Positions 19,369 through 41,948 of a DNA stretch of 64,000 nucleotides are shown here, piece by piece (position 1 is the first letter of the stretch; every line of letters begins with the position of its first letter). The notes below the pieces were generated by a model that did not search any database, was not told the origin of the DNA, and worked only from the letters and a program-made list of their open reading frames with translations. The position numbers and the translations under genes are program-made. Source of the DNA: Gemmatimonadota bacterium (GTDB lineage Bacteria > JAAXHH01); assembly GCA_026705925.1 (NCBI GenBank), contig JAPOZT010000004.1:1-64000 (forward strand), in the 5' to 3' direction.

Positions 19369-19557
19369 TTCGAGCCCGTGGGTTTCAGGCGATGCTTTAT
19401 TCCCTTGACACCGTGCTCGAAATCGGACACGTATTAATGTTCCATACTGTAAACTAAATGACACCGTGGCTGGTTTTTGATTATCGATTCGTACGAATTC
19501 CTCCGGATGGCGGGGACACCAGCGCACAAACGAAATCCGAATAACGACCGGGGAGAG

Positions 19558-20214
19558 ATGATGTTAAGATTCGCGGAAGAGATCCTGCTGCTCATGCTCG
19601 ACGACGACGGGAAATTCGTGGGCGTGCCCGACCGTCTGTTACGATATGGTCTCGCCGGTGGCGTATTGATGGACCTCGCCCTCGAAAACCGCATCGATAC
19701 CGATGTCGACAAGCTGGTCCTCGTGGATTCGAAGCCCCTGGGAGACAATCTTCTCGACCCCGTGCTGGCGGATATCGCGGCGTCATCCGAAACGCACGGG
19801 GCGCGGTACTGGATCGAGCACGTCGTCGACCGTGCAGAGGACATCCGGGAGACGGCCATCGACCGGCTCGTCGAACGGGGAATCCTGAAAAAGGAAGAAG
19901 GCCAGTTCCTGTGGGTATTCCGGTCGCGGCGCTATCCGATCATTGATGGAACGGCCGAGCGTGAAGTCAAGTTACGCATCATGGAAGTGCTGTTCAGCGA
20001 TATGATCCCCAGCCCGCGGGACGTGGTGATCATCAACCTCGCCCACGCGTGCAACCTCTTCAAAGAGATCCTGTCCTCGCGGGAGCTCGCCCAGGCCGCC
20101 GATCGCATCGATCAGGTGCGCAAGCTGGACCTCATTGGCCAGGCCATGTCGAGGGCGATCTCTGACATCGAACTGTCCCTCACCCTCGCGGTGGAACGCG
20201 GATACTATATGTGA
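19558..20214 (+). CDS. GPP34-domain (Golgi phosphoprotein 3-like) protein
   Basis: The protein (about 218 aa from the ATG at 19558) opens with MMLRFAEEILLLMLDDDGKF and continues with LRYGLAGGVLMDLALENRI, the signature of the GPP34/GOLPH3 domain; DLIGQAMSRAIS near the C-terminus is also in line. Eukaryotic members bind phosphatidylinositol-4-phosphate on Golgi membranes, but the role of bacterial members is largely unknown. A GGGGAGAG site sits directly before two consecutive ATGs (19558 and 19561); an earlier in-frame ATG at 19477 lacks a ribosome site. No membrane segment is seen. It follows the receptor gene by about 190 bases and is probably transcribed alone. Confidence 0.8.
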   Translation: MMLRFAEEILLLMLDDDGKFVGVPDRLLRYGLAGGVLMDLALENRIDTDVDKLVLVDSKPLGDNLLDPVLADIAASSETHGARYWIEHVVDRAEDIRETAIDRLVERGILKKEEGQFLWVFRSRRYPIIDGTAEREVKLRIMEVLFSDMIPSPRDVVIINLAHACNLFKEILSSRELAQAADRIDQVRKLDLIGQAMSRAISDIELSLTLAVERGYYM

Positions 20215-20276: not shown

Positions 20277-21662
20277 CTACCTGCCGTGGCAGCGCTTGAA
20301 CTTCAGGCCGCTTCCGCACGGACAGGGGTCGTTCCTCCCCGCCGATTTGAACGCCTTCTGCCTTCTGAGCTCGGCTTCCTGCCGGCGGATGTACGTCATC
20401 ACGTTGGCGGGGGCCCGCCTGTGGCGCAGTTCGTTGGCCATGAACCGCATGGGGCCGTCGATGTGGTGGAAGAAGGCCTTGTACCCCTCGCACAGGTAGT
20501 TCAGGCCCGGTTCGCCGTCGGGCGTCGTGATGATGCGGTTCTTCGGACACCCCCCGTTGCAGATGAACCGCACGTCGCATGAAAGGCAGTACTGCGGCAG
20601 CGTGTCCAGCTTGGCCTGCCCGAAGGTCCGTTGCTGCTCGGACAGGACCATCTCCATCATCGGAATCTCGGTAATATTGCCCAGCAAGTAGTCCGGCTCG
20701 ACGTAGTGGTCGCAGGCGTAGAGATCCCCGTTGTGTTCCAGCGCCAGGGCATCGCCGCAGGTCTCCATGAAAATGCACAGCCCCGGGCTCTGGCCGGACC
20801 AGGCGGCGAGCGACACGTCGAAGATCTGCACGTACATTTTCCCCACGTCCCGACGCACCCATTCGTCGAAAATCCGGATCAGGAACCGGCCGTACTGCTT
20901 CCCCGTCACCGACCGCTTCGTCACCTCGTTGCCTTCCTGGTACCCGGTGTCGTTGTCCCGTTCCACGATGGGGATGAATTGCAGGAATCGCGTCTTCACC
21001 ACGTCCCGCATAAAGCGATAAACTTCTACAGGATATTCCGCGTTGGCTGCGTGCACCGTGGTCAGGATGTTGAACTCGACCTCATGGACCTGCATCATCT
21101 CCGCCGCGCCCATCACCGCGTCGAAGGTCGGCTTGCCGCCCTTGTCGACCCGGTAGGCGTCGTGCAGCGCTTTGGGGCCGTCGAGGCTCAGGCCGATCAG
21201 GAAGTCGTTTTCGTGGAAGAAACGGCACCAGTCCGCGTCGAGGAGCGTGCCGTTGGTCTGCAGGGAGTTGTAGATACGCGTGTCGGGTTTCTGGAATTTC
21301 TTCTGGAACTCGACGGCCTTTTGGAAGAACTCGAGGCCCATGAGGGTGGGCTCTCCGCCCTGCCAGGCGAAAGTGACTTCCGGCACCTGCTGGGCTTCGA
21401 TATACTGCCTGGTGTATTCCTCGAGCAGATCGTCGGACATGCGGAACCCGCTGCCGGGATACAGATCCTCCTTGGCGAGGAAGTAACAGTACTTGCAGTC
21501 GAGGTTGCAGATGGCCCCCCGGGGCTTCATCATCACGTGAAACGCCGGGACCGGGACCGGATCTCCTCCGGCCGAGGGCATGGACGATGCCGGGACCGAT
21601 TCTCTTCCGGCCGAGGGCATGGACGATGCCGGGACCGCTGTGGTTGTGTCGACTGGGTTCAC
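20277..21662 (-). CDS. Anaerobic sulfatase-maturating enzyme (radical SAM, SPASM) with C-terminal SEC-C motif
   Basis: Converts the active-site Cys (or Ser) of sulfatases to formylglycine without oxygen. The radical SAM motif CNLDCKYCY (Cys 52, 56, 59) is followed by GGEPTLMG, and later cysteine groups (YACDHYVEPDY, CLSCDVRFICNGGCPKN) match the SPASM auxiliary clusters of this subfamily, including the conserved Asp after the Cys in ACDHYVEPDYLLG. The last 20 residues (DPCPCGSGLKFKRCHG) are a SEC-C zinc motif. The start is a GTG at 21662 with AGGAAA upstream; the first 40 residues hold a duplicated 13-residue unit and may be dispensable. It is the last gene of a run that contains three Cys-type sulfatases, its likely substrates. 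Confidence 0.9.
   Translation of the reverse strand: MNPVDTTTAVPASSMPSAGRESVPASSMPSAGGDPVPVPAFHVMMKPRGAICNLDCKYCYFLAKEDLYPGSGFRMSDDLLEEYTRQYIEAQQVPEVTFAWQGGEPTLMGLEFFQKAVEFQKKFQKPDTRIYNSLQTNGTLLDADWCRFFHENDFLIGLSLDGPKALHDAYRVDKGGKPTFDAVMGAAEMMQVHEVEFNILTTVHAANAEYPVEVYRFMRDVVKTRFLQFIPIVERDNDTGYQEGNEVTKRSVTGKQYGRFLIRIFDEWVRRDVGKMYVQIFDVSLAAWSGQSPGLCIFMETCGDALALEHNGDLYACDHYVEPDYLLGNITEIPMMEMVLSEQQRTFGQAKLDTLPQYCLSCDVRFICNGGCPKNRIITTPDGEPGLNYLCEGYKAFFHHIDGPMRFMANELRHRRAPANVMTYIRRQEAELRRQKAFKSAGRNDPCPCGSGLKFKRCHGR
21568..21637. repeat. Direct repeat (31 bp, period 39) at the start of the maturase gene
   Basis: The same 31 bases occur at 21568-21598 and 21607-21637. In the maturase frame the 39-base period gives two copies of Val-Pro-Ala-Ser-Ser-Met-Pro-Ser-Ala-Gly followed by three variable residues, so the duplication is in frame and lengthens the disordered N-terminus. 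Confidence 0.9.
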
Positions 21663-21732
21663 GGTGTTTCCTGGGCCTTTTGTTTCTTGCAGATTCGGAC
21701 CTGCAACAGGGCGTTATCCCGGATGTTCGGTG

Positions 21733-23259
21733 CTATCGCCGGCCGTGCCGGATCCAGGGATCCAGCACATCGCGCGGATGACCGGGAAAGCCTCGTACGT
21801 CGCGCGACCGGTCGAACTGGTAGATGCGCGAGGCTTTCCACTTCGTGTAGGGAAAGGTACGCAGGCGGTCGCCATCCAGAGCGTCGGTGGCGCCCGGATG
21901 GCCGCAAGCCTGCACGCCCCGCCGGTACAGATCGTCGGCGGCATCCCGATCGGACGCAACCCGGTTCGTTACTTCGGCCGGGTCTTCAGCCGTGTTGAAC
22001 AGCTGCTCCCTCCCGCCGTTCGCCAGGTAAATATACTTCCAATCGCCGCTTCGTACCATGATTTTGAACCGATCCGTCCCCGGTTCGCCGTAATACCCGA
22101 AGAGGGTCTCTCTGGGCGGTGCGCTGCCATCCAACACGCCGAGGACGTCCACCCCGTCGCGCACCTGGGGCCTGCCGGCGGCATGGGTGGCGATGGCGAA
22201 GAGATCGGTCAGGCAGACCAGATCGTCTCTTCGAACGTCCCGAGGCAGGCGGTCGGGCCAGCTCACCAGGAAGGGTACGCGGGCGGAGACGTCGAAGAAA
22301 CTCTCCTTCTGCCATGCGGTATGATCCCCGAGGTGGTCGCCGTGATCCGAGAAGAAGCAGATGAGGGTGTTGCCGGCGTCCTCGCGGGTCTCGACGGCGT
22401 CCAGTATCCGGCCCAGGCAATCGTCGATGTAGGTGATCTCTCCGTAATAGCGGGCCTTGAGGACGCGGGTCAGCGCGTCGTTGATTTCATCGGCCCAGAT
22501 GATCCGGTTCATGAAGGGAATCTGCTCGTCCAGGTGGTCCACGTTCTGGTCGCCGCACACGGGCCCCGGCATGCGGTCGGGGTTGTAGATCCGGTTGAAG
22601 GGCACGGGCGGCGCGAAGGGCGGATGGGGACCGATGAAGGACACGAAACCGAAATACGGCCGGTCATCGAACGCGCTTAGCGCCTCGATCGCGCGGTCCG
22701 CGGCCCAGGACTCCACGGTCAAGTGGGCGGGCAGCGGGCTTGCCTGGGGCATGTAGTACATCTCGGTCCGCTCCCCCATGAGCGCTTCGATATAGTCGAA
22801 ATCCGGATGCTCGCGGGCGATCCAGCCCGCGTAGGCGTCTCCGCGTCGCTGCTCCGGGCTGCCGTAGAGTTCCTCGCTGTGGAGCTGGGTCTCGTAACCC
22901 ACGTCTTCGTTCCACGGGAAGGTGTGGAACTTCCCCACGCCGAAGGTCCGGTAGCCCGCGGCCGAAAGGGTACGGGCAAGATAGTTTCCGCACCGGCCCT
23001 CGAGCGTATCGGCCTGGCCGGGCACGGGCGCGGACCGGCCGTTGCTGAATACCCGTGTCGTGGGCGGATCGCATCCCGTACGGATGGTCGTCCTCGCCGC
23101 CACGCAGACGGGACAGGTCGAGTAGCCCTGGGTAAAGGACACGCCCCGCCGCACGAGACGGTCCATGTTGGGGGTGTAGATATGCTCGTTGCCCAGCGCG
23201 GCGATCGTATCGAAACGCTGCTGGTCCGTCATGATGAAGAGAATGTTGGGACGGGTCAT
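21733..23259 (-). CDS. Type I sulfatase (formylglycine-dependent), CxAxR variant
   Basis: Hydrolyses a sulfate ester; the substrate is unknown. The N-terminus RPNILFIMTDQQRFDTIAALG carries the metal-binding Asp of the family. The modified residue is Cys52 in CVAAR, followed by TTIRTG, so the usual CxPxR motif is CxAxR here, a form known from some clostridial sulfatases matured by the anaerobic enzyme. Further ligands are seen in FFSDHGDHLGDH. The ATG at 23259 has AGAGGA upstream and gives 508 aa. No signal peptide is seen, so it is either cytoplasmic or exported by an unrecognised route. It lies between an unknown TIM-barrel-like gene and the maturase. Confidence 0.87.
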   Translation of the reverse strand: MTRPNILFIMTDQQRFDTIAALGNEHIYTPNMDRLVRRGVSFTQGYSTCPVCVAARTTIRTGCDPPTTRVFSNGRSAPVPGQADTLEGRCGNYLARTLSAAGYRTFGVGKFHTFPWNEDVGYETQLHSEELYGSPEQRRGDAYAGWIAREHPDFDYIEALMGERTEMYYMPQASPLPAHLTVESWAADRAIEALSAFDDRPYFGFVSFIGPHPPFAPPVPFNRIYNPDRMPGPVCGDQNVDHLDEQIPFMNRIIWADEINDALTRVLKARYYGEITYIDDCLGRILDAVETREDAGNTLICFFSDHGDHLGDHTAWQKESFFDVSARVPFLVSWPDRLPRDVRRDDLVCLTDLFAIATHAAGRPQVRDGVDVLGVLDGSAPPRETLFGYYGEPGTDRFKIMVRSGDWKYIYLANGGREQLFNTAEDPAEVTNRVASDRDAADDLYRRGVQACGHPGATDALDGDRLRTFPYTKWKASRIYQFDRSRDVRGFPGHPRDVLDPWIRHGRR

Positions 23260-23328
23260 CGGGTTTCCTCTACCGGGTCTGCCGTCGATGTGCCGCCGGA
23301 GCCGGCCGATCACGTCCAGGGCGCGTTT

Positions 23329-24738
23329 TCAAGATGCTCGACGGGCCTGCCGCCAGATACGCCCCACCGCGTCCAGCTTGTCGTCGCCCAAGTACCCGTA
23401 CCGGTTGATCCATACGCCGTCGGCCGGACTCTCCGCCACCACCCGGAAACGCCGGGCGAAATCATGCAGGGGGCCGTAGCCGTGCATGAGTGGCGTGACG
23501 AGCGCGCGCCCGTTCACCTCCGCGCAGACCTGCTCGATGCGTCGCCGCTGGGCGTCATCGGGGATAGGATGGGGCTCATCGGGATCGGGATACCCGTAAT
23601 CGTCGATCCGGGTGGTCGTGATTTCGTCTCCGAGGTCGAAGAGATGGGCGAGCGAACGCACCAGGAGCCGTTCGTCCAGGCCGGGATTACGTTCCAGCAG
23701 CACCTTTCCCCAGAATTCCACCATGACCGACCAGTGCATGGTATACAGCTTGGGGGACACCGCGTCGCAGGTCTCCGGAGCGCCGCGGAAATCGAAGCCG
23801 GTCCACAGGGTGAGAGGCGTCATGAAGGCGTTGGCCGATAGCTTCTTTTCGAGACCGCCGTGCGTCGTGACGACCGTCCGCCAGTGCCGCAGCAGGTCGC
23901 CTGACAGGGCGGATTTCAGGCGCAGCCATTCCGCGATGCCGGGAAAGGACCGGAAGACGGCAGCAAGCGTCGCTGCGCCCCGGCCGGGGCCGCCGAGGTC
24001 GAGCAGGTCCCGGTTTTCGAGCCTTCCGTGCAGGTAATCGTAGGCCGCCCGCACGTCCCGGTGGATGGCTTCGAAGTCGAACCCGTTGGTCGAGGCCCAC
24101 CGCGCCACCTGGGGATTGAAATCCTGGAAGGCCTCGTCCAGCTTGTAACAGGGGTACTCGGGCCAGTCCGGCCGGAAGCCGGTTACGCGGGGATACTGTT
24201 CGAGCAGGTCCCGCACATAGGCGGTGATGTAAGCCCGGATCGCCTCGCTGGCAAGGCAGCCCGTGTCGGCCATGCGGTCCGGCAGTTGCCCGTCCGGTCG
24301 CCTCGGCCGGTCATCGTCCGACAGTCCCGGCGGCGTCGCGCCGCTCAGCTGCAGATAGACCTCGAGCCCGCGGTCCAGCGCCGCGTCGATGAACCGTTCG
24401 ATCAGGTCGCCGTGGGCCTCCGTCAGTTCGTTGGGTTCGCGGGGCTTGTACGGGGTATCGGCATAGTAGGACAGGCGTGGCCGGTAACTTGGTGCGCTCC
24501 GGACCCAGAGTGAACGCCGGCCCCACAGCGGCCGGTCGAAAAGGCGGGGACTGCTGCCAGCGTCGCTGGGCGGCTGGAAGGAACCGACGCCCTTCTCGGA
24601 CGGCGCGGTCACCGTGGGATTCACCGCTACTGCCGTGGCGCCCGCCCGGTTCACCAGGTTGTCCAGCACGGCCTCCACCCCTTCGTTCAGGATGAAATCG
24701 GCCAGGACGGTGATGCCCAGCAGTCGATTCTCGCTCAT
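23329..24738 (-). CDS. Unknown protein, possibly a TIM-barrel glycosidase-like enzyme
   Basis: I do not recognise the family. The 469-aa protein opens with MSENRLLGITVLADFILNEG, has a segment on a subdivided barrel pattern (GLEVYLQLSGATPPG, RVTGFRPDWPEYPCYKLD, VSPKLYTMHWSVMVEFWG, VTPLMHGYGP, GVWINRYGYLGDD), and acidic residues at strand ends (DWPEYP, the E of VMVEFWG). These suggest a TIM-barrel hydrolase, but no named glycoside hydrolase motif could be matched. There is no signal peptide. Placement between two sulfatase genes suggests that it acts on the carbon skeleton of the same sulfated compound; this is inference. Confidence 0.55.
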   Translation of the reverse strand: MSENRLLGITVLADFILNEGVEAVLDNLVNRAGATAVAVNPTVTAPSEKGVGSFQPPSDAGSSPRLFDRPLWGRRSLWVRSAPSYRPRLSYYADTPYKPREPNELTEAHGDLIERFIDAALDRGLEVYLQLSGATPPGLSDDDRPRRPDGQLPDRMADTGCLASEAIRAYITAYVRDLLEQYPRVTGFRPDWPEYPCYKLDEAFQDFNPQVARWASTNGFDFEAIHRDVRAAYDYLHGRLENRDLLDLGGPGRGAATLAAVFRSFPGIAEWLRLKSALSGDLLRHWRTVVTTHGGLEKKLSANAFMTPLTLWTGFDFRGAPETCDAVSPKLYTMHWSVMVEFWGKVLLERNPGLDERLLVRSLAHLFDLGDEITTTRIDDYGYPDPDEPHPIPDDAQRRRIEQVCAEVNGRALVTPLMHGYGPLHDFARRFRVVAESPADGVWINRYGYLGDDKLDAVGRIWRQARRAS

Positions 24739-24770
24739 CTTCCCGTGCTCGTGTTTTTTCGACTAAGCGT

Positions 24771-24848
24771 CAGTCGGCACTCAGTCGGCGGTCGGCGGTC
24801 GGTCGTTCGTCGGCATTCAGTCGGCGGCCGTCATTCAGTCGGCGGACG
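24771..24848. repeat. GTCGGC-rich tandem repeat between sulfatase and unknown gene
   Basis: About 78 bases of degenerate CAGTCGGC/GTCGGCG units, with the 18-base unit CATTCAGTCGGCGGCCGT repeated almost exactly near 24813-24848. It overlaps the last codons and stop of the sulfatase whose gene ends at 24835. Confidence 0.75.
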
Positions 24849-26184
24849 CCATGGACTCGAGCTGCGCCTCGATGAACCGGTCCGCGCGGTCGTCCTCCGC
24901 ATCGGGATCGCAGATCGATCGGAGTTCCCTTTCCAGGTCGGTAACGACCGCCGGATGCGCCTCACACACGTTCTTAAGCTCATCTGGATCCCTTTCCAGG
25001 TCGAACAACTGGTGGGGCGCATCGACGTGATGGATGTATTTCCATTTTCCCTTCCGGATCATGAAAGCGCTGTGCCTCGCCCCGTGGCCATGGTATTCCG
25101 AGAACACGACGCGCTGGTCATCGGTCGCGGGCACATTCTGCAGGAGACGGCCCGCCCAATCTTCCGGGCGTTCGGCGTCCGTCGACGCGAAGAGGCTCGC
25201 CTGGACGTCGTGGAGGTCCACGGGCGTCGATGCCCTCAGCCCGGAGACAAAATCGGGTCCCGCCGCGATGCAGGGGATTCGGCTTGCGTCTTCGTAGAGG
25301 GAGCATTTCCACCACATGCCGAACTTTCCGAGCATCTCCCCGTGGTCCGACGTGTAGATGACATTGGTATCGTCGTACAGCCCGGCTGCTTGCAGCGCCT
25401 CGACCAGGCGCGCCAGTTGCCGGTCAACGAAGGTCACGCAGGCGAGGTATCCCCGGCGCTGGCCCCGCACCTGGTCCTCGGTGAACCGGTCCGTCTGGAA
25501 ATGTTCGCGCACTTCAAGGGCCCGAGGATGGCCTGCCGTTTCCTCTTCGGCACCGTATTCCGGCAGATCGCCGCCCTGGGGATATAGATCCCACAATTCC
25601 TGCGAGGTGTAGTGGGGGAAATGGGGATGGATGACATTTACCGTGAGGGTCCACGGTCGCCCCAGCGAAGGCGCGGTATGTGTCAACCAGTCTACCGCGG
25701 CGTCGACGCGGTCCAGGTCAAGTCGGAGATGCGGCTCATTTACCCCAAACTGCGAAGCCCTTTCCGCGGCGGCCCGCCGGATCCGGAAAGGCCGGCGTCC
25801 TATTTCCGGATCGCCGGCGCCCCGATCCCTGCCGCCGAGGCGCACCTCGCTGAAACCCAGGTCGCCGCTCGGCGCGAAGACGTGCGTCTTGCCCACGTGC
25901 ACGGAGTATACGCCCTGTTCCGACAAGGCGCCTCCGTAGGTGGGGATGTCCGGGTCGACGCCGATGGTGCAGTTGGAATAGGCCTGGATCTCGTGCACCC
26001 TGCGCCCCGACATGAAGGCGGACCGGCTGGGTGTGCAGAGGGGCGACGGGCAGTAGGCGCTGTCGTAGACGACCCCGTTCGCCGCGAGTCGGTCCATGGC
26101 GGGCGTCTGTACGAACGGATGACCGTAGACCGAGGAATAGAACGGGTTGTGCTCGTCGGAGATGAGCAGGACGACATTGGCCAT
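24835..26184 (-). CDS. Type I sulfatase (formylglycine-dependent)
   Basis: Sulfate-ester hydrolase of 449 aa. Canonical features: the N-terminal strand VVLLISDEHNP with metal ligands, the modified Cys50 in CTPSR followed by SAFMSGRRVHE, GKTHVFAP, and the C-terminal metal site YTSDHGEMLGKFGMWWK. No signal peptide is seen. The TGAGGT that ends the upstream PhyH gene doubles as ribosome site 8 bases before this ATG, so the two are probably translated together. The C-terminus lies in a short repeat and may have been altered by it. Confidence 0.9.
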   Translation of the reverse strand: MANVVLLISDEHNPFYSSVYGHPFVQTPAMDRLAANGVVYDSAYCPSPLCTPSRSAFMSGRRVHEIQAYSNCTIGVDPDIPTYGGALSEQGVYSVHVGKTHVFAPSGDLGFSEVRLGGRDRGAGDPEIGRRPFRIRRAAAERASQFGVNEPHLRLDLDRVDAAVDWLTHTAPSLGRPWTLTVNVIHPHFPHYTSQELWDLYPQGGDLPEYGAEEETAGHPRALEVREHFQTDRFTEDQVRGQRRGYLACVTFVDRQLARLVEALQAAGLYDDTNVIYTSDHGEMLGKFGMWWKCSLYEDASRIPCIAAGPDFVSGLRASTPVDLHDVQASLFASTDAERPEDWAGRLLQNVPATDDQRVVFSEYHGHGARHSAFMIRKGKWKYIHHVDAPHQLFDLERDPDELKNVCEAHPAVVTDLERELRSICDPDAEDDRADRFIEAQLESMASAD

Positions 26185-26193
26185 GCGCGGACC

Positions 26194-27018
26194 TCATTTC
26201 CCTTCAAGAAAGGTCTTGAGCGGCACGTCCTCTTCTTCCGGCAGATAGTAGCTGAGGGCGTCTCCCACCTCGCCGATCAACTGTTTCTGTAACGGCGAGC
26301 AGCGGTCCACGAGGGATTTCGGCATCTGGATGTAATCCATGGGCTTGACCCAGCGGTACGCGTACCCCATGAAAATCGTCCTGCGGTCGTGGCCGCACCA
26401 GTTGTGGCCGATACTGTGGAAGGTGCGCTGCTCGAACAGGAAGGCGCTACCGGCGGGCAGGTTCATCTGGATGGCGCCGTAGGGCCAACCCGTGGCCGGA
26501 TCCCTAGGCGGCTGCCCCGTGATCCGGTTGCTGCCGGGCACCAGCGAAGTGGCCCCCGAGGAAGGATCCGTCTGGTCACTCAGCACGTAGGCAATCTTCA
26601 GCAGGATCCGGGGATGGGGTTCCTGCATTTCGACGAAGGACCGGCCGCCGTCACGGTGCATGCCGTGTCCGCGCCTGACCTCCTCGGTGGGTTCCGGCCC
26701 CGAGGGCAACACGATGAGGTGGGAGGTAATCATCTGGATGTTCCAGCTGAGCGCGCCCCAGGCCAGGGGTATGGTCGCCGGCCAGTCGAGTAACTGGAGA
26801 AAGGCATCGTGGGCCACGATGCAGTTCCGCATGTTCAGATCGCCGCCTTTCCCCAGCGTATCCTCCTTCCGGGCCCGGTCGTACAATTCGTCGATGGCCC
26901 CGTTCAACTCCCCGACGACCGCCGGCGGCAGCGCGTCTTCGATAATCAGGTAGCCATATTGGTCGAGACGTTCCCGCTGTGCGTCGGTCATCTCGGTGTA
27001 CTGGTGTCCGTTTTCCAT
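26194..27018 (-). CDS. Phytanoyl-CoA dioxygenase (PhyH) family protein
   Basis: Probable Fe(II)/2-oxoglutarate oxygenase of unknown substrate. The N-terminal DAQRERLDQYGYLIIEDALPP and the iron-site His-Arg-Asp of GHGMHRDGGRS, the SGATSLVPGSNRI turn and the distal His in RTFHSIGHNW are visible. The start is uncertain: the ATG at 27018 is used (274 aa), with an ATG at 27051 possible. Its position between the substrate-binding protein and a sulfatase gene ties it to the same pathway. An oxygen-dependent enzyme in a unit served by an oxygen-sensitive maturase is noteworthy. Confidence 0.83.
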   Translation of the reverse strand: MENGHQYTEMTDAQRERLDQYGYLIIEDALPPAVVGELNGAIDELYDRARKEDTLGKGGDLNMRNCIVAHDAFLQLLDWPATIPLAWGALSWNIQMITSHLIVLPSGPEPTEEVRRGHGMHRDGGRSFVEMQEPHPRILLKIAYVLSDQTDPSSGATSLVPGSNRITGQPPRDPATGWPYGAIQMNLPAGSAFLFEQRTFHSIGHNWCGHDRRTIFMGYAYRWVKPMDYIQMPKSLVDRCSPLQKQLIGEVGDALSYYLPEEEDVPLKTFLEGK

Positions 27019-27065
27019 GTCAGTAATCGATCCTTCGATCAAAGTGTGCATTTCGCCCCGGCGCC

Positions 27066-28862
27066 TCAATAGTCTATGCGCCGGTCACTGTCCACGGCCT
27101 CCTGGCCGATGTAGAGGTCATAGTATGTATTTGCGTTTCGGTAATTTGGAAAGTTTCCCCACCGGTCTTCCCGGAACCCCTTCAGCCAGGGCTTGCGCAA
27201 CTGGTAGGCCTTGACATGCCAGAGGAAAACCGCAGCGGCCTCGGAAGCGAGAATCCCTTCGGCCTCGTCGTACATCGCCATGCGCGCCTCGTGGTTCAGC
27301 TCTCCGGCGGCCGCGTCGATCAGCCGGTCGAACTCCGGGTTCAGCCAGTCGTGGCGCGTGTACCCCCTGGGCTGGGACCGCCAGATGATGCCCAGCATGC
27401 TGTGGGGATCGGGAAAGTCGTAGTTGAACCCGATGATGCTCATGGGAAACTCCCAGTTGTACATGGCCGACCGGTACGCCGCGCCTTCCGTGTTCCGGAT
27501 GTCGATCTGGATATTCAGGTTCTCCTTGAGCATCTCCTGGATCGCCTGGGCCACCTGGCTGATGGCGGAAGCGGGCGTGGCGTCGGCGAGCCAGATATCC
27601 ATCCGCGGGAAACCCCTGCCGTCCGGATAGCCGGCCTCGGCGAGCAGCTGCCGGGCGAGGTCCACGTCGAACCGCTGGTGGTCCCGGTACTTGTCACCCA
27701 CGTAGCCGGGGAAATGCAGCGGCAGCATGGTGTATGCGGGGATCATCATGCCCTGGAGTATCGTCTCGTTCAGCGACTCTTGGTCGATGGCGTGGGCGAA
27801 GGCCTGGCGGACCCTGAGGTTGTCGAAGGGGGGCTCGCGCGTTCGGAAGAACAGATAAACCGTCGTAAACTGGTCGTAGGACCACGCCGGTTCGTTCCAT
27901 TCCGGATCGTCGCGCAGGCCGCCGTAGACCATGGGGCTGATGTCGATCACGTCGATCTCGTCGTTCTCGTAAGGCAGCAGTCCCATGTCGTTCGCCGCGC
28001 TGGCCGATCCGACCATGGCGTTGAATATGCGGACGATCTGGCGGAGATGACCGGGATTGGACCCGGTGTAGTGGGGATTCAGGCCGAACGTCATGTACTG
28101 GCCCGTCTTCCACGTCTCGAGCTGGAAGGGTCCGTTGGTAAGGCAGGTGCCGGCCAGGGCCCACTGGTCCCCGTATTTCTCCACCTGCCAGGGCGGGACG
28201 GGCGCGGAAGTGAGGTAGGCGGTGATATGGGGCAGGAAGGCGCAGGACTGCTCCGTCTCGATGACCAGGGTGTAGTCGTCCACCGCCCGGACGCCAACGG
28301 TGTCGACGTCGTCTGTCTCCCGCTGGTTGTAGGCCTTTGCGCCTTTGATGTCATAATAGAGAAAGGCGTAGACGTTGCCCGCGTTGGGATGGAGGAACCG
28401 CTTGAAGGTGAATTCGAAATCGTGGGCCGTGACGGACCGACCGTCGCTCCACCGCCCGTCCCGGCGCAGGTGAAAGGTCCAGGTCCTGCCGTCCTCGGAA
28501 GGTTCCCAAGACTGCGCCGCGCCGGGGATGAGTTCTCCGTTCAGTCCGAACATGACGAGCCGCTCGAAGTGGAACTCGCTTCCGCCCGCCACGTAGATCG
28601 AGACGCCCTGGTCCATGCTCTTGGGTTCCGCGGCCATGTACCGGAACACCTGGTACTCGAGGGGCGCGGCGTCGTCGGGCAGGCGCTCCATCAGCGCGGC
28701 GTGGGCCGCCTCCTTCATTTCCGCGGTCTGGCCGAAGAACAGCTCGGGAGCGCTTTCTTCAGCATCTTCCGGCGCCGTTTGACCGCCGCAATTCACGAAC
28801 GACAGCGCGAAGACGATCAGGAGCGTCACCGGGAATCGTCGCAGGATTAGCGTCTTCTTCAT
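27066..28862 (-). CDS. Family 5 extracellular solute-binding protein (peptide/oligosaccharide type)
   Basis: Ligand-capturing component of a Dpp/Opp-type ABC importer. The N-terminus is a signal peptide (MKKTLILRRFPVTLLIVFAL) with a Cys at NCGG that could be lipidated, though Asn just before it departs from the standard lipobox. The mature part has family landmarks: GAAQSWEPSEDGRTWTFHLR followed by DGRWSDGRSVTAHDFEF, and RQAFAHAIDQESL. The length is 598 aa. No permease or ATPase gene adjoins it. A paralogue lies at 40271-41932. It is placed between a sulfatase and a PhyH gene, so it may deliver the sulfated compound or its product. Confidence 0.88.
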   Translation of the reverse strand: MKKTLILRRFPVTLLIVFALSFVNCGGQTAPEDAEESAPELFFGQTAEMKEAAHAALMERLPDDAAPLEYQVFRYMAAEPKSMDQGVSIYVAGGSEFHFERLVMFGLNGELIPGAAQSWEPSEDGRTWTFHLRRDGRWSDGRSVTAHDFEFTFKRFLHPNAGNVYAFLYYDIKGAKAYNQRETDDVDTVGVRAVDDYTLVIETEQSCAFLPHITAYLTSAPVPPWQVEKYGDQWALAGTCLTNGPFQLETWKTGQYMTFGLNPHYTGSNPGHLRQIVRIFNAMVGSASAANDMGLLPYENDEIDVIDISPMVYGGLRDDPEWNEPAWSYDQFTTVYLFFRTREPPFDNLRVRQAFAHAIDQESLNETILQGMMIPAYTMLPLHFPGYVGDKYRDHQRFDVDLARQLLAEAGYPDGRGFPRMDIWLADATPASAISQVAQAIQEMLKENLNIQIDIRNTEGAAYRSAMYNWEFPMSIIGFNYDFPDPHSMLGIIWRSQPRGYTRHDWLNPEFDRLIDAAAGELNHEARMAMYDEAEGILASEAAAVFLWHVKAYQLRKPWLKGFREDRWGNFPNYRNANTYYDLYIGQEAVDSDRRIDY

Positions 28863-28938
28863 GATCTTTTCATCCTAAGCTTCGGGCGGGCCGGAAAACC
28901 TGCATTCGCGCCCGCTCCGGGCGGGTCGATCAGTCGGC

Positions 28939-30420
28939 CTACGCTCCCGGCGGATCGATACCCAGGCGGGTGAACTGTTCCGGCATGGCCTCACAGGCTT
29001 CCAGGTGACGGGCGATCCGTTCTGTGAACCGGGCTTCCAATGCCGGATCTTCTATAGGGTGCTGCTGTGCCGGGTCCGCTGCGACGTCGAACAGCTGGTT
29101 CCGGCCCGCATAGGATGCCTCGTCGGGGTGGTGCCGCGGGACCTTTCCGTCTGTGGGGATCTTGTACAACGGGAGGTTATAGGTGTGGCCGAAGTAACGG
29201 CCCGTTTCGACCCGGTCGTACACCTCCCTCGGATACCATCGGTTCAAACCGCCCGTGGGCATGGCCGTGTAGGCATACAGCGGCCCCGCGTCCTCGTTGA
29301 CCGGGTTGCGCATGTACACGTACCTCCCGTCCGTTAAGTTCATGGCCATCCCGAAATAGCCGAAGATGCCGTCTGCCCTGACGCTGTCGCCGTCCAGCAC
29401 CTTGCGTAGTGACCGTCCCTGGACGTGGGGAGGCGGCGGGGTATCGAAGTAGTCGAGAAAGGTCGGCATCAGGTCGATGGTCTGCGTGAGCGTTCCGGTT
29501 CGCGTGCCGGCCCGCTCGTTACCGGGCAGGCTCGCGATCAGTGGTATCCGGACGATCTCGTTGTACAGGGGCATGATATTCTTCATCCAGAAGTCATGCT
29601 CCGCCAGCATGGTCCCGTGATCCGTGGTGAACACGACCAGCGTGTCGTCCCACAGCCCCAGGTCGTCGAGCGTGTCGAATATCCGGCCCACCCAGTGGTC
29701 CGTCATCGTGAGCAGCCCGGCATAGCACTTCCGGATATGCTCGACCGCTTCAGGGGATTCGTGGACCTCGTCGTAACTGGGCCAGTCGTAGAACGGTCCG
29801 TCGTAATCGTCGCCGTACATGGCCCGGTACTTCTCGGTGCAATAGAAGGGTTCGTGGGGATCGAAGATCTCGACCTGCAGGAACCAGTCGTCGGACGCCC
29901 GGTTCGTCTTCAGCCACTCGATGGCCGCCTGCGCGGTCTTCGGACCGGAGAAGTCCTCCTCGCGCTGCTGCAGTTTGCGGTTGCCGAAATTCTGCTGGCT
30001 GAGTTGCCCCAGGTGGTCGGGCAAGGCCATGCGGTCCACGTGGGACGCCCACCAGTCGTTCTCCTGGCCGCGGAAGAAGTCCCAGGTGTTGAACGCCGTG
30101 TGATAGTTCTCGCCACCGAGTTCGAAGTAGTGGTAATGATCGGTCAGCAGGTGAGTGAAGACGTCATGCTTCCGCAACTCGCCCGGCAGCGTATCGTCGT
30201 AGGGCTCGATGGGCCCCCATCCCCGGTAGATGAAGTTGTACCGCCCGGTCATGAACTCCCGCCGCGCGGGCATGCAGGGCAGCGAGCCCACCCAGTGATT
30301 GTCGAAAACGACGCCCCGTTCGGCCAATCGGTCCAGGGCGGGCGTATGCACCCAGTCGTTGCCGTAAGTCGAAAGGTAGTCCCGGCGGACGGTATCAAGG
30401 ACTATAAATACACATTTCAT
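28939..30420 (-). CDS. Type I sulfatase (formylglycine-dependent)
   Basis: Sulfate-ester hydrolase of 493 aa. The N-terminal VFIVLDTVRRDYLSTYG has the first metal Asp, Cys49 lies in CMPAR followed by REFMTGRYN, and VVFTTDHGTMLAEHDFWMK supplies the distal metal ligands. All three elements are canonical. No signal peptide is visible. It begins 14 bases after the rraA stop, so the two are co-transcribed. Sequence around the Cys differs from the other two sulfatases here, pointing to a different substrate bond rather than a recent duplicate. Confidence 0.9.
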   Translation of the reverse strand: MKCVFIVLDTVRRDYLSTYGNDWVHTPALDRLAERGVVFDNHWVGSLPCMPARREFMTGRYNFIYRGWGPIEPYDDTLPGELRKHDVFTHLLTDHYHYFELGGENYHTAFNTWDFFRGQENDWWASHVDRMALPDHLGQLSQQNFGNRKLQQREEDFSGPKTAQAAIEWLKTNRASDDWFLQVEIFDPHEPFYCTEKYRAMYGDDYDGPFYDWPSYDEVHESPEAVEHIRKCYAGLLTMTDHWVGRIFDTLDDLGLWDDTLVVFTTDHGTMLAEHDFWMKNIMPLYNEIVRIPLIASLPGNERAGTRTGTLTQTIDLMPTFLDYFDTPPPPHVQGRSLRKVLDGDSVRADGIFGYFGMAMNLTDGRYVYMRNPVNEDAGPLYAYTAMPTGGLNRWYPREVYDRVETGRYFGHTYNLPLYKIPTDGKVPRHHPDEASYAGRNQLFDVAADPAQQHPIEDPALEARFTERIARHLEACEAMPEQFTRLGIDPPGA

Positions 30421-30434
30421 ATTATGTCATCTTT

Positions 30435-31169
30435 CTATTCGTCTTCTTTCCTGCCGTAGCTGTGTCCGCCCAGGATCGCCTTGATGTCGTCAGCCGACCG
30501 GGCGCGTTCGAAGGCGTCTATACGCTCCTCTTCCTCCTCCGCCAGCGCCGTGGCGTTCTCGAGCACCGCGTCCATCCTGTCGGCGGGAAACTTGCACGCG
30601 CCGTTCTCGTCCATGTGAATGATCTCGCCCGGCGCCACGTCCATGCCGCCCACGGATACGGGCACGTTCACCGCGTGCACGGCCTGGTCCCCGTGGCCCG
30701 GCGTGACGCCGCTGAGCAGGTACTGAACCTCCATCGGCCGGATCTCGTGTATGTCCCGCGACGGTCCGTTGGAAACCACGCCCACGCAACCCACGGCCTT
30801 TGCGGAAGCCGTCATGTTCCCGCCCGCCAATCCCACTTTTCCGGCGATCTCCTCGGGGAAATTCTGCCGGATCACGAGAATCGTCGGCCCGGGGGATTCG
30901 TCCAGGGCGTCGATGACATCGATGAAGGAGAGGTTCTTGAAACCCGGCTCGGGCAGGCCGAAGACGCAGGTGACGGCGTAGCCCACGGTGCGCCCGAGTT
31001 CGGGATACATGCATTTAATGGATTGGTCCGTGTACCAGTTCACCGCCCACGGGTTGTATAGACCGAGGCAGAGGGGATGGGTGGGATAGGTGGCCACCAC
31101 GTTGGTGATCGTAGGGGTGTCGAACTGTTTCAGCGCCTCCAGCGTCTCCTGCGGGGACCGCGTGGGCAT
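30435..31169 (-). CDS. RraA-family protein (aldolase/dimethylmenaquinone methyltransferase-like fold)
   Basis: Members include oxaloacetate decarboxylase/4-hydroxy-4-methyl-2-oxoglutarate aldolases and the RNase E inhibitor RraA. The core signature is seen as LAGGNMTASAKAVGCVGVVSNGPSRDIHEI, in which the Gly-rich loop and the Arg-Asp pair match the catalytic centre of the aldolase branch, and a later PGEIIHMDENGACKFP block supports it. The length of 244 aa is a little longer than RraA itself. A good AAGGAGCG site precedes the ATG. As first gene of the sulfatase run it probably acts as a retro-aldolase on an acid intermediate. Confidence 0.82.
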   Translation of the reverse strand: MPTRSPQETLEALKQFDTPTITNVVATYPTHPLCLGLYNPWAVNWYTDQSIKCMYPELGRTVGYAVTCVFGLPEPGFKNLSFIDVIDALDESPGPTILVIRQNFPEEIAGKVGLAGGNMTASAKAVGCVGVVSNGPSRDIHEIRPMEVQYLLSGVTPGHGDQAVHAVNVPVSVGGMDVAPGEIIHMDENGACKFPADRMDAVLENATALAEEEEERIDAFERARSADDIKAILGGHSYGRKEDE

Positions 31170-31257
31170 GCATCGCTCCTTCCGGGGTGCGTGCTGAAAA
31201 GAGGTAGGAAATCAGACCGTAAAATCGGTACGTCAAATCGGTGGAATGAACCCGGTG

Positions 31258-31286
31258 AATATGGTCCTGATTCGACGGGGTGTCAA
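31258..31286 (-). promoter_or_regulatory. Promoter of the rraA-sulfatase transcription unit
   Basis: On the minus strand a perfect TTGACA (31286-31281) is followed after 17 bases by CATATT (31263-31258; four of six). It sits about 90 bases upstream of the rraA start. No other strong promoter was noticed between the genes down to the maturase at 20277. Confidence 0.6.
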
Positions 31287-31397: not shown

Positions 31398-31931
31398 TTA
31401 ATCAGACGAACCGGACTGGAGCGACCGCTGCCACAGGGCTGTTGAGTAGAACTCGTAAGACGCGGCTTTATCTGGGACGTCGACGAGATGGACCGTAAAG
31501 CGGCACGGCACACCGTTGTCCGGCAGATAATCCCTGAAGAAGCTGCTATACGCCCGGGCATACGCTTCCTTCAGCCGATCCTGCTCGGCGGCGTAACCCA
31601 CCGGGTCCACGAGGGGATTCGGCGACTTGGGCTGGCACCCGAAGGCGTGCACTTCGATGAAGTCGATATCCCGAAGCGACTCGCACAGGCCGGCGTCAAT
31701 CAGCCACTTCTCCCAACTTTGAAAGACCAGGGGGATCTCCTGGTCCGGTTCCATCGAAATCAGTTCATCCCGCTCCAGCACACCCTTGGCGGAATAGCCG
31801 CCCGTGAGACCGGCGAAGTAGATCTTAAGGTCCCCATCCGGCTGCGCTTCCGTAACCAGGGCCGACAGCACCGGGTTTTCGCCGTGGTAATAGTAGGTCA
31901 GCTTGCCGCGCTTTTTGATGTTGAATGACAT
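31398..31931 (-). CDS. Hypothetical protein
   Basis: A 177-aa protein that I do not recognise. It starts MSFNIKKRGKLTYYYHGENP behind a strong AAAAGGAG site, so it is very likely expressed. It is soluble-looking, has aromatic residues spread through it (FAGLTGGYSAKGV, VFQSWEKWLID, FIEVHAFGCQPKSPN) and no membrane or signal segment. The second half is helical with charged residues. It stands between rraA and the divergent selD fusion gene without clear link to either. Confidence 0.7.
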   Translation of the reverse strand: MSFNIKKRGKLTYYYHGENPVLSALVTEAQPDGDLKIYFAGLTGGYSAKGVLERDELISMEPDQEIPLVFQSWEKWLIDAGLCESLRDIDFIEVHAFGCQPKSPNPLVDPVGYAAEQDRLKEAYARAYSSFFRDYLPDNGVPCRFTVHLVDVPDKAASYEFYSTALWQRSLQSGSSD

Positions 31932-32172
31932 TGATACTCCTTTTGGAAGTTCAGGTTTCTCAGGATCTCTCGCATACGGTTCACCGTGTTAAGGGAAGGC
32001 CGCATCGTCAGGATAATCTACTGCGCGTGTCAAGGTCGACCAGGTGGCGTAGTCGACTCCGTGAAGCGGCCATTTTCAGGTATTTTCCTAGATCATCATG
32101 GTCATCGGCCGATACGGTCTCGCGACTCATTATGGACTTTGGCCGTACGGACGCGCCGAGTATATTCCATTA

Positions 32173-34506
32173 ATGAACCAGACCGTCCCTTTCAAAAAAG
32201 ACCTCGTGCTGGTCGGCGGCGGCCATTCCCACGTGCAGGTGATCCGCATGCTGGCCATGAAGAAGGCCCTGCGCGGCATCCGCGTCACGCTCATCTCGGA
32301 CGAGTCCACCGTCTGCTATTCCGGCATGCTGCCCGGTTGCCTGGCCGGCCTGTACCGTCCCGACGAGATGGAAATGGAACTGAGGCCGCTGTGCACCTGG
32401 GCGGGCATCCGGTTCGTCCGGGCCCGGGTGGCCGGCCTCGATCCGGCCCTCCAACAAGTCTATTTCGACGACGGCCGTCCTCCCCTTGCCTACGATGCCC
32501 TTTCGATCAACGTCGGTTCGATTCCCAGGGGCATGGACACCCCGGGCGTGCGGGAACACGCCGTGCCCACGAGGCCGCTCGGGCTGCTGCTGAAGCGGGT
32601 TCACCGGTTCGAGGAAAACCACCGGAGCGACGGCCGGCCGTTACGGATCGTCATCGCGGGAGGCGGCGCGGCGGGCGTGGAACTGGCCTTCGCCATGCAC
32701 TCGAGATGGGGAGCGCGATTCGCGCCCGTCCAGATCACCCTCGTGGATTCGCAGGCGACTTTGCTGACCGGGCACCGTCCCCGGGTCGCCGCGATCATCG
32801 GGCGGTACCTCGAAGATAAGGGGATCGCCTGGCACACCGGCCTGCGGGTCACGGGCGTGGATGAGGCGGGCATCCATTTCGAGGATCATCCGTCCCTGCC
32901 CTGCGACTTCCTGCTCTGGGCCACGGGCGGAGCGCCGCCCGGTCTGATGAAGGAGACAAACCTGGAGACCAGCGGTGCCGGGTTCATCCGCGTCCGGTCC
33001 ACCCTGCAGGCCATGGGTTATGACAACGTCTTCGCGGCGGGCGATTGTATCGAGTTTCCTTCCCGTTCCCTGCCCAAATCGGGAGTCTACGCGGTCCGTG
33101 AGGGACCGGTTCTGGCCCGAAACCTCCATGCCTGGCTCGAAAACCGGTCCATGGTTCCCTACAGGCCCCAGGCCTCGGCGCTTGCGCTGCTCATGACCGG
33201 GACGCGCAACGCCGTCGCCAGCCGGCGGCACGTCTCCTTTCACGGCCCCTGGGTGTGGCGCCTGAAGGACTGGATCGACCGACGCTGGATGCGGAAATTC
33301 GAACCGGCGCTGCTGCCGCCCATGGACCCGGCCGGCGATGCGCCGTCCGCCCTCGATGCGCCATCCACCCGTGATGCGCACCCCGCCCACGATGCGCACT
33401 CCGCCCACGCTGCGCACGCCGCCGGTGACGAAGCCGGCAAAGACCCGGCAGTGTCGGCCATGCGCTGCGCCGGGTGCGGCGCCAAGGTCGGTTCCACCGT
33501 ACTCACCGGCGTGCTCGACGAACTGGACATATTCAGCCGCGAGGAAGTTCGGATCGGCCTGCACGACGCCGACGACGCGGCAATGCTTGAGATCCCTCCC
33601 GGCCGGTCGCTGGTACAGACCGTGGACGGCTTCCGGGCCTTTACCGGCGACCTGCACCTCTTCGGCCGTATCGCCCTGGTCCACGCCGCGTCGGATCTGT
33701 ACGCCATGGGGGCCGAGCCTCACTCCGCACTGGTTACGGTCACGCTGCCCTACGCGGAAAAACTCCTGGTGGCGAACGACCTGAGACAGCTCATGGGCGG
33801 CATCGCGGAAGAGGCCCGGCGTCTCGGGGTCACGCTCCTCGGCGGGCACACGAGCGAAGGAACGGAGACAGCCGTCAGCATAACCATGAACGGCCTGACC
33901 GGCAACGACGCCGTATTCAGGAAAGGCGGGCTGCGTCCCGGCGACGGGTTGGTCCTGGCCAAGCCCGTCGGTACGGGCGTCATCCTGGCGGCCGATATGC
34001 ACCTAAAGGCCCAGGGAAGCTGGGTCGATGAAGTCCATGAAGGCATGCTGCAGTCGAATGCGGAGGCGGCCGGGGTCCTTGCAAAGGCCGGCATTCCCGC
34101 CGTCACGGACGTGACCGGCTTCGGCCTGGCGGGACACCTGGTCGAGATGCTCGAGGCCAGCGGCACGGGAGCTGAGATTGAAATCGACCGGATACCGCAT
34201 TATGCCGGCGCGGCGGATTGCGTGGCCGCCGGGGTGGAGAGTACCCTGGCGCCGTCCAACCGGGAGCATTTGCAGAAAAGATGGCAGGTGGAGCCAGGAC
34301 CCGGCGCGGCGTACACGGCGGAGCCCGGCGCGGCGGACGGGCGGGACGCCCTCCTCTTCGACCCCCAGACCTCGGGCGGACTGCTGGCCGGCGTGCCTGC
34401 CTCCGGCATCGACGAGGTAGTCGCGAAATTGCGGGATGCCGGTTACGCGCAGGCGGCCTGCATCGGACGAGTGACCGACCGGAAACGGCACCTGCAGATC
34501 CGCTGA
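32173..34506 (+). CDS. selD: Fusion of NADH-dehydrogenase-like FAD domain and selenide, water dikinase
   Basis: The C-terminal part (from about residue 430) is selenophosphate synthase, which makes the selenium donor for selenocysteine and selenouridine from selenide and ATP. It shows the CAGCGAKVGS motif with the catalytic-position Cys and not Sec, the DDAAML metal site, RIALVHAASDLYAMG and the GGHTSEG loop. The N-terminal part (about residues 10-385) is a two-dinucleotide-binding oxidoreductase: LVLVGGGHSHVQV, IVIAGGGAAGVELAFAM and NVFAAGDC. A low-complexity Ala/His/Asp linker joins them. The start at 32173 (MNQTVPFKKD) precedes the first dinucleotide fold; an earlier ATG at 32098 is possible. 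The length is 777 aa. Confidence 0.9.
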   Translation: MNQTVPFKKDLVLVGGGHSHVQVIRMLAMKKALRGIRVTLISDESTVCYSGMLPGCLAGLYRPDEMEMELRPLCTWAGIRFVRARVAGLDPALQQVYFDDGRPPLAYDALSINVGSIPRGMDTPGVREHAVPTRPLGLLLKRVHRFEENHRSDGRPLRIVIAGGGAAGVELAFAMHSRWGARFAPVQITLVDSQATLLTGHRPRVAAIIGRYLEDKGIAWHTGLRVTGVDEAGIHFEDHPSLPCDFLLWATGGAPPGLMKETNLETSGAGFIRVRSTLQAMGYDNVFAAGDCIEFPSRSLPKSGVYAVREGPVLARNLHAWLENRSMVPYRPQASALALLMTGTRNAVASRRHVSFHGPWVWRLKDWIDRRWMRKFEPALLPPMDPAGDAPSALDAPSTRDAHPAHDAHSAHAAHAAGDEAGKDPAVSAMRCAGCGAKVGSTVLTGVLDELDIFSREEVRIGLHDADDAAMLEIPPGRSLVQTVDGFRAFTGDLHLFGRIALVHAASDLYAMGAEPHSALVTVTLPYAEKLLVANDLRQLMGGIAEEARRLGVTLLGGHTSEGTETAVSITMNGLTGNDAVFRKGGLRPGDGLVLAKPVGTGVILAADMHLKAQGSWVDEVHEGMLQSNAEAAGVLAKAGIPAVTDVTGFGLAGHLVEMLEASGTGAEIEIDRIPHYAGAADCVAAGVESTLAPSNREHLQKRWQVEPGPGAAYTAEPGAADGRDALLFDPQTSGGLLAGVPASGIDEVVAKLRDAGYAQAACIGRVTDRKRHLQIR
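33336..33420. repeat. Degenerate 15/18-bp tandem repeat encoding the NDH-SelD linker
   Basis: Successive units built on GATGCGCC/GATGCGCA occur five to six times. They encode a linker of Asp-Ala-Pro/His and Ala-His units between the oxidoreductase and selenophosphate synthase domains. Confidence 0.8.
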
Positions 34507-41932: not shown

Positions 41933-41948
41933 AGCGGTATTCTTCGCG

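Follow-up and report, generated by a model that had tools for sequence, protein, structure and literature searches.

What does a bacterium do with three dissimilar sulfatases, an oxygenase, an aldolase-like protein and a sulfatase maturase encoded in a single run of genes? This question is raised by positions 20,277 to 31,286 of a 64,000-nucleotide stretch (contig JAPOZT010000004.1, assembly GCA_026705925.1, positions 1 to 64,000 of the forward strand; hereafter the window) from a Gemmatimonadota bacterium (JAAXHH01), where eight co-directional genes occupy the minus strand from 31169 down to 20277: an RraA-like protein, a first sulfatase (S1), a solute-binding protein (SBP), a PhyH-type oxygenase (PhyH), a second sulfatase (S2), an unannotated protein (UNK), a third sulfatase (S3) and the maturase anSME. 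The reading that we favor, tentatively and with somewhat less than even confidence, is that they form one transcription unit for the intracellular catabolism of a small sulfated glycoside or oligosaccharide. All eight genes listed in the initial annotation of this DNA, which was made from the letters alone, are indeed there, all of them on the minus strand and with the location and order that it gave, and its interpretation is overall partly supported. The unit comprises the following features:

31258..31286, minus strand: sigma-70-like promoter TTGACA-17-CATATT, upstream of RraA and conserved in the alignment
30435..31169, minus strand: RraA-like aldolase-type protein, 244 aa (Pfam PF03737, 73.9 bits, cut-off 24.5)
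28939..30420, minus strand: S1, Cys-type sulfatase, 493 aa (PF00884, 139 bits, cut-off 25; CMPAR)
27066..28862, minus strand: SBP_bac_5 solute-binding lipoprotein, 598 aa (PF00496, 265.6 bits, cut-off 32.4)
26194..27069, minus strand: PhyH-type Fe(II)/2-oxoglutarate oxygenase, 291 aa (PF05721, 55.3 bits, cut-off 22)
24835..26184, minus strand: S2, Cys-type sulfatase, 449 aa (PF00884, 117 bits, cut-off 25; CTPSR)
24739..24834: gap between S2 and UNK, with about four imperfect 18-bp tandem repeats
23329..24738, minus strand: UNK, unannotated TIM-barrel protein of predicted glycoside-hydrolase-like fold, 469 aa (AlphaFold2, fold comparison)
21733..23313, minus strand: S3, Cys-type sulfatase, 526 aa (PF00884, 140 bits, cut-off 25; CVAAR)
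20277..21662, minus strand: anSME, radical SAM sulfatase maturase, 461 aa (Radical_SAM and SPASM in Pfam; TIGR03942)

Type I formylglycine sulfatases carry the motif C-x-(P/A)-x-R with a modified cysteine, and the three motifs listed above all fit it. The motif cysteine is kept in 10/10 alignment rows for S1, 11/11 for S2 and 10/11 for S3, the eleventh S3 row being unreadable at this position. As all three proteins pass PF00884 with their motifs intact, the claim of three different Cys-type sulfatases stands; judged by family cut-off and motif, they are type I formylglycine sulfatases for which hydrolysis is predicted. Their pairwise identity is only about 23-28%. The further step taken in the initial annotation, to a complete route starting from a molecule with several sulfate groups, does not follow: three such enzymes are no proof that a single substrate bears three sulfates. 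In a sequence search of the PDB, the nearest solved structure to S2 is the choline-sulfatase BetC (188 bits, the next distinct protein reaching 115). Aligned with BetC from Sinorhizobium meliloti (PDB 6fny), S2 keeps the catalytic residues C54, K102, H104, H201 and K309, whereas W129, H145, N146 and E386 are replaced by G, A, E and H. These four residues are reported to serve choline binding or gating in choline-sulfatase (PMC9063841, PMC5870055), although passages of the two papers disagree on the role of residue 386. With 255.9 bits against a cut-off of 433.45 for the choline-sulfatase equivalog TIGR03417, and with the choline-binding residues absent, choline-O-sulfate catabolism via S2 was rejected. 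The nearest PDB chains to S1 are labelled putative sulfatase/multifunctional alkaline-phosphatase-superfamily protein and phosphonate monoester hydrolase, and those to S3 choline-sulfatase; at the level of such sequence matches, the nearest structures of S1, S2 and S3 give no substrate.

The maturase passes the NCBIfam equivalog TIGR03942 (492.7 bits, cut-off 349.45) and, when searched against its own genome, matches itself only. No FGE was found in this genome by a search whose control was positive in 4 of 14 genomes. As the genome (3.77 Mb, in an assembly 94% complete) contains 31 sulfatase matches, two of which are parts of one gene, these results suggest one anSME serving about 30 sulfatases; it probably serves all the sulfatases of the cell, unless a further maturase is missing from the assembly or too distant. 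As the only maturase found in a genome with 31 sulfatase matches, anSME provides by its place in the operon only weak evidence for the pathway. The anSME gene also contains a 39-bp tandem repeat (21551-21637), translated into a repeated PASSMPSAG stretch at the N-terminus of the protein.

Where would these enzymes act? By hydropathy count, the solute-binding protein is the only one of the eight with a hydrophobic N-terminus, which is followed by a cysteine in a lipobox read by eye; S1 is without signal peptide by the same approach. In nine UNK genes (the window, L050, L058, L060, L061, L083, L084, L095 and L099), the first possible start codon is no more than about 15 residues away from the opening strand of the barrel. 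With a signal peptide on the binding protein only, the arrangement points to cytosolic breakdown of a substrate that is probably small and imported. How it would be imported is less straightforward, since no permease match was found on the contig of the window, on which a second SBP_bac_5 gene is located (40271-41971, minus strand). Across the genome, SBP_bac_5 is matched 23 times and permease domains, counting every kind, 31 times, and 18 of the 23 SBP_bac_5 genes have no permease match within 10 kb, according to lists read by eye. The binding protein of the cluster must hence borrow a permease or do something else, and the counts suggest that many dedicated OppA-like binding proteins feed few shared permeases.

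Regarding the oxygenase, its iron and 2-oxoglutarate site is intact (H138, D140, H218, R229 and R230, kept in 10/10 rows). A second possible start of its gene is located at 27051, and another PhyH protein is encoded in the window (12523-13302, minus strand). The nearest PDB match by sequence search is TlxI, at 41 bits, and none of the 8 PDB matches is a chain named PHYHD1. Poribacteria are a phylum known from sponges. An expansion of PhyH proteins is known in this phylum (PMC3909097), and PhyH-family enzymes, one of them from Poribacteria, have been described to take 2'-O-methyl groups off nucleosides (PMC12709175, 2025); these PHYHD1-like demethylases (FJS and the Poribacteria enzyme) are PF05721 2-oxoglutarate oxygenases, like the PhyH of the window. 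Because PhyH proteins can, on this report, strip methyl groups from sugars (PMC12709175), O-demethylation of a sugar by PhyH is a fair guess by analogy, and no more. A link to sulfoquinovose dioxygenases was also considered and dropped, the literature found being concerned with algal lipid remodelling. At least two further sulfatase-PhyH adjacencies exist in the same genome, a lead rather than a count: in L148:8380-10930 the two genes lie 61 bp apart on the same strand, and in L149:9061-11419 they are convergent with overlapping ends, the PhyH proteins being 34-35% identical to that of the window. With 22 PhyH and 31 sulfatase matches in the genome, a meeting of the two families is less surprising than first thought.

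The RraA-like protein shares PF03737 with the RraA-like aldolases acting on 4-hydroxy-4-methyl-2-oxoglutarate (HMG) and 4-carboxy-4-hydroxy-2-oxoadipate (CHA), and keeps their R-D pair in 10/10 rows. It matches nine NCBIfam models and reaches the cut-off of none, including those of the HMG/CHA aldolases (47 bits against 304.5 for LigK, TIGR02798; 47.5 against 179 for NF006731; 24.5 against 196 for NF009134) and that of RraA itself (NF006875, 29 bits against 136). From sequence models, its reaction cannot be named.

The unannotated protein, UNK, matches nothing in Pfam or NCBIfam at E 0.001. When 34 relatives were scanned against Pfam with the threshold relaxed to E 0.1, five families came up, none in more than a single member (best E 0.026), and a search of the PDB with the 34-row profile (hmmsearch, E up to 1) gave no PgaB chain and a lone match to a dehydrogenase at E 0.26. 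The alignment of 34 sequences has 53 invariant columns, including DWPEYPCY and YTMH. L027 was left out of one further alignment on account of a stop within its translation. AlphaFold2 predicts a TIM barrel with a mean predicted local distance difference test score of 93.5, which bears out the "TIM-like" label given initially. By VIA-align, the nearest solved fold is the C-terminal domain of PgaB, which we take to be GH153 (Z 26.8, root-mean-square deviation 3.4 over 324 residues, about 10% identity), followed by Cwp19 and the glycoside hydrolase (GH) families GH164 and GH42 (identities about 10-16%, Z about 20-23 for the two latter), the 50 matches listed being PgaB, Cwp19 and other carbohydrate-active barrels; Foldseek retrieves the same PgaB domain at E 2.4e-8. 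While the TIM barrel is common to UNK and these proteins, as are, judging from the UNK model, conserved acids close to where strand 4 ends, UNK differs from PgaB, which is exported, in having no sequence match to PgaB chains and no signal peptide seen. In the model, D190 and E193 (numbered as in the alignment, where each position is one lower than in the gene), invariant in 34/34 sequences, are at or just past the end of counted strand 4, and the invariant K329 (alignment numbering) is at the end of counted strand 6. The modelled fold suggests that UNK may split a glycosidic bond.

One pattern-based scan of 84,980 species genomes retrieved 59 UNK loci, eight of them from the genus of the window and its sister, with identities of 37-96% among the relatives found; a plasmid search with two queries gave none. 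Their titles cover Latescibacterota, Gemmatimonadetes, Planctomycetes, Chloroflexi (mainly Caldilineaceae), Actinomycetota, Spirochaetes, Kiritimatiellia, Lentisphaera and Oceaniovalibus. Relatives thus carry titles such as Latescibacterota, a name that one study applies to sponge lineages, SAUL and PAUC34 among them (PMC8163846). Sulfatases with anSME have already been reported in Latescibacteria (PMC4454575), and PAUC34f has been described as relatively sulfatase-rich, host-associated genomes not being richer than free-living ones (PMC7081726). In a paper on sponge Latescibacterota, a term search of the main text returned neither "sulfatase" nor "phytanoyl" (PMC12993501).

The neighborhoods of the 51 UNK loci outside the family were examined, and for 50 of them (all but L077) the sulfatases nearby were set against the number in the same genome. 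A sulfatase is present in the fetched DNA at 18 of the 50 loci, within 6 kb at 14, and in total 24 sulfatases were seen against 12.9 expected (Poisson p 0.004), or 16 against 7.9 within 6 kb (p 0.008), the background being a count of search candidates that is probably an over-count, since no more than about 36 per genome were scored. The excess is strongest in sulfatase-poor genomes (6 seen, 0.8 expected, p 0.0002) and weaker in the middle ones (7 against 2.9, p 0.03; within 6 kb 3 against 1.9, which is chance). As related genomes share neighborhoods, these neighbor counts are not independent events. Near the 51 loci, raw counts, given without background, are 10 for PhyH, 3 for RraA, 5 for GH95 and 3 for GH29. 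Enolase-superfamily neighbors resemble sugar-acid dehydratases, below model cut-offs. Taken together, the UNK family appears from its sequence context to be carbohydrate-leaning and not tied to sulfate. Sulfonate routes, considered for HpsN- and SuyAB-like neighbors, were rejected, as the HisD-like neighbor passes the histidinol dehydrogenase model and the UxaA-like pair matches galactarate dehydratase, though below its cut-off. At L048, L050 and L059, a group formed by an S2-like sulfatase, a PhyH and an aldehyde dehydrogenase adjoins UNK; it was not retained as the same trio, the sulfatase being only 35-36% identical and the PhyH of L050 only 20%, and this sulfatase-PhyH group may reflect convergence.

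Do the eight genes constitute a unit? The intergenic gaps in the window range from -4 to 96 bp, four of the seven junctions measuring only -4 to 15 bp, so that the genes of the co-directional run described initially are indeed closely packed; in relatives, the gap between S2 and UNK is anywhere from 10 to 118 bp long and differs between species. The strong promoter announced upstream of RraA fared less evenly. A scan of the window returned 3 matches against 2.9 expected in shuffles, a score no better than chance, while, once the sequences preceding RraA are aligned, TTGACA is seen in 11/11 rows and CATATT in 10/10 rows of the genus; the sister genus retains TTGACA and not CATATT, in upstream DNA that is otherwise variable. 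The predicted promoter is hence supported by conservation, not by score. In the phylum set of 16 genomes, 12 of which belong to one genus (L041-L046 and L071 were taken as genus genomes already counted and not counted twice), all eight genes are present in 10 of the 12 genus genomes, nine times on one contig in order and in G011 on two contigs. In G009, S3 aligns in two pieces; G007 and G012 show just parts of the cluster, located on short contigs, and G007 yielded no ortholog of RraA, S1 or PhyH. Another genus of the same family, represented by G001, has all eight genes over two contigs: RraA (76% identity), S1 (83%), SBP (75%) and, truncated by the contig end, PhyH (63%) on the first, and S2 (62%), UNK (73%) and S3 (76%) at the end of the second, with anSME (83%) at a distance of 4.6 kb. 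Whole-genome searches across the phylum set were made with UNK, PhyH, RraA and S1, the other four proteins being sought in the fetched stretches, and anSME additionally through the genome of the window. For the four proteins searched genome-wide, G013 has only an RraA ortholog (69%), and G014 and G015 have none. An empty site in G013 was considered and rejected: the SelD-like neighbor is on a 7.4-kb contig with no cluster-gene match and no clean junction.

Several observations weigh against a dedicated pathway for a sulfated sugar. The unit can be split: in G011, 6.8 kb of other genes separate SBP from PhyH (RND efflux-like by eye, L033:1359-7994), and in G001, 4.6 kb separate S3 from anSME. 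The flanking genes (the 177-aa protein, the SelD-fused oxidoreductase and an alcohol dehydrogenase) hold the same positions in G001 and are as syntenic as the cluster; synteny alone is thus little proof for it, even if the eight genes also occur in a second genus. In Pfam, no permease, recognized glycoside hydrolase, sugar kinase or dehydrogenase is found among the eight genes, and for this reason the cluster does not encode a complete pathway. At 32 of the 50 distant UNK loci, no sulfatase is present in the fetched DNA, and in sulfatase-rich genomes the 11 sulfatases seen near UNK against 9.2 expected correspond to chance. The initial annotation had named scattered homologs without conserved clustering as what would speak against it, and this is partly what is seen, since distant UNK loci lie in varied contexts, mostly without sulfatases, although the cluster is kept in the genus and its sister. 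Foldseek matches of UNK up to E 0.001 also include non-carbohydrate barrels (dihydroorotate dehydrogenase, 5.1e-4). Finally, GH95 or GH29 genes are near 7 of the 51 distant loci, yet no GH29 fucosidase was found in the genome of the window (GH95 was not searched there), and a link to fucose was set aside.

On the reading that we favor, the lipoprotein SBP would capture the compound and deliver it to an ABC permease whose gene lies elsewhere and which other binding proteins would use as well. Once in the cytosol, the compound would lose its sulfate esters to S1, S2 and S3, which anSME would mature and whose motifs predict such activity; PhyH would hydroxylate the compound, the most likely outcome being the loss of an O-methyl or similar ether group; UNK, to judge from its fold, would split the glycosidic bond; and the RraA-like protein might carry out a late carbon-carbon cut or the decarboxylation of the resulting keto acid. 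The same genes could instead serve a non-sugar sulfated small molecule (a sterol sulfate, the sulfate of an alkyl compound or amino alcohol, or some sulfated natural product), with PhyH performing a true oxidation and UNK acting as a lyase, aldolase or isomerase. Schiff-base lysines are a feature of class I aldolases, and the invariant K329 could be one; the binding protein is OppA-like, and the chains nearest to S2 and S3 are choline-sulfatases, those nearest to S1 being phosphonate monoester hydrolase or putative sulfatase chains. We nevertheless consider this unlikely, if still a serious alternative, since the choline-binding residues are absent from S2, glycoside hydrolases dominate the fold lists of UNK and some of its relatives are near GH95, GH29 and sugar-acid dehydratase-like genes.

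It may also be that there is no single pathway, and that unrelated catabolic genes share a promoter in a syntenic stretch rich in sulfatases and PhyH. The 31 sulfatase, 22 PhyH and 23 SBP_bac_5 matches in 3.77 Mb, the equally conserved flanks and the insertions tolerated in G011 and G001 are what such an assemblage would look like, but the conserved promoter, the short spacing at four of the seven junctions (-4 to 15 bp) and the fact that two genera share the complete set of eight genes, with protein identities down to 62%, make it rather improbable. Least probable of all, in our view, is a role in gathering sulfur rather than carbon, whereby the sulfatases would free sulfate from mixed small esters while PhyH and UNK widen the range. 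The low identity among the three sulfatases (about 23-28%) and the lack of any central catabolic enzyme in the cluster besides RraA would suit it; yet sulfate is plentiful in the sea, a general point that would apply if the genome is marine, and RraA and the GH-like protein point to carbon use.

Beyond the unit, a 177-aa protein without any Pfam match (31398-31931, minus strand) is encoded 228 bp upstream of rraA on the same strand and is 87% identical in the sister genus, above any of the eight operon proteins. A pyridine-nucleotide oxidoreductase fused to AIR-synthase-related domains, read as SelD-like, is also encoded there (32098-34506, plus strand). On the other side, a GPP34 (Golgi phosphoprotein 3) domain protein (19477-20214, plus strand) is convergent with anSME, and a TonB receptor (16942-19368), also convergent on the other strand, is located 0.9 kb beyond the eight-gene unit.

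Returning to the catabolism of a small sulfated glycoside, how does such a unit compare with known loci? Like the sulfatase-rich loci for fucan, ulvan and carrageenan, the cluster groups multiple sulfatases with a maturase and a hydrolase-like protein; it differs from these polysaccharide loci in having no secreted glycoside hydrolase or lyase and in sulfatases without signal peptide. Neither a SusC/SusD pair nor secreted depolymerases, which define Sus-type polysaccharide utilisation loci, are present in the eight-gene unit. No publication pairing a sulfatase or arylsulfatase with a phytanoyl-CoA dioxygenase was found in a light search, RraA and bioRxiv preprints being outside its scope. A route pairing desulfation with oxidative stripping is, to our knowledge, unfamiliar among the sulfated-glycan loci described so far.

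Sulfated sugars are a large marine carbon pool, and much work concerns secreted enzymes acting on polymers. The present unit appears to act on a small molecule inside the cell, joining sulfatases with an oxygenase. It is possible, albeit still doubtful, that UNK founds an unrecognized cytosolic family of glycoside-cleaving TIM barrels spread over several phyla and working here with PhyH and three cytosolic sulfatases, which would couple the desulfation of a small sulfated sugar to its oxidative stripping, for instance by O-demethylation. Well conserved, seemingly cytosolic and without a match in Pfam or NCBIfam, UNK would be cheap to test.

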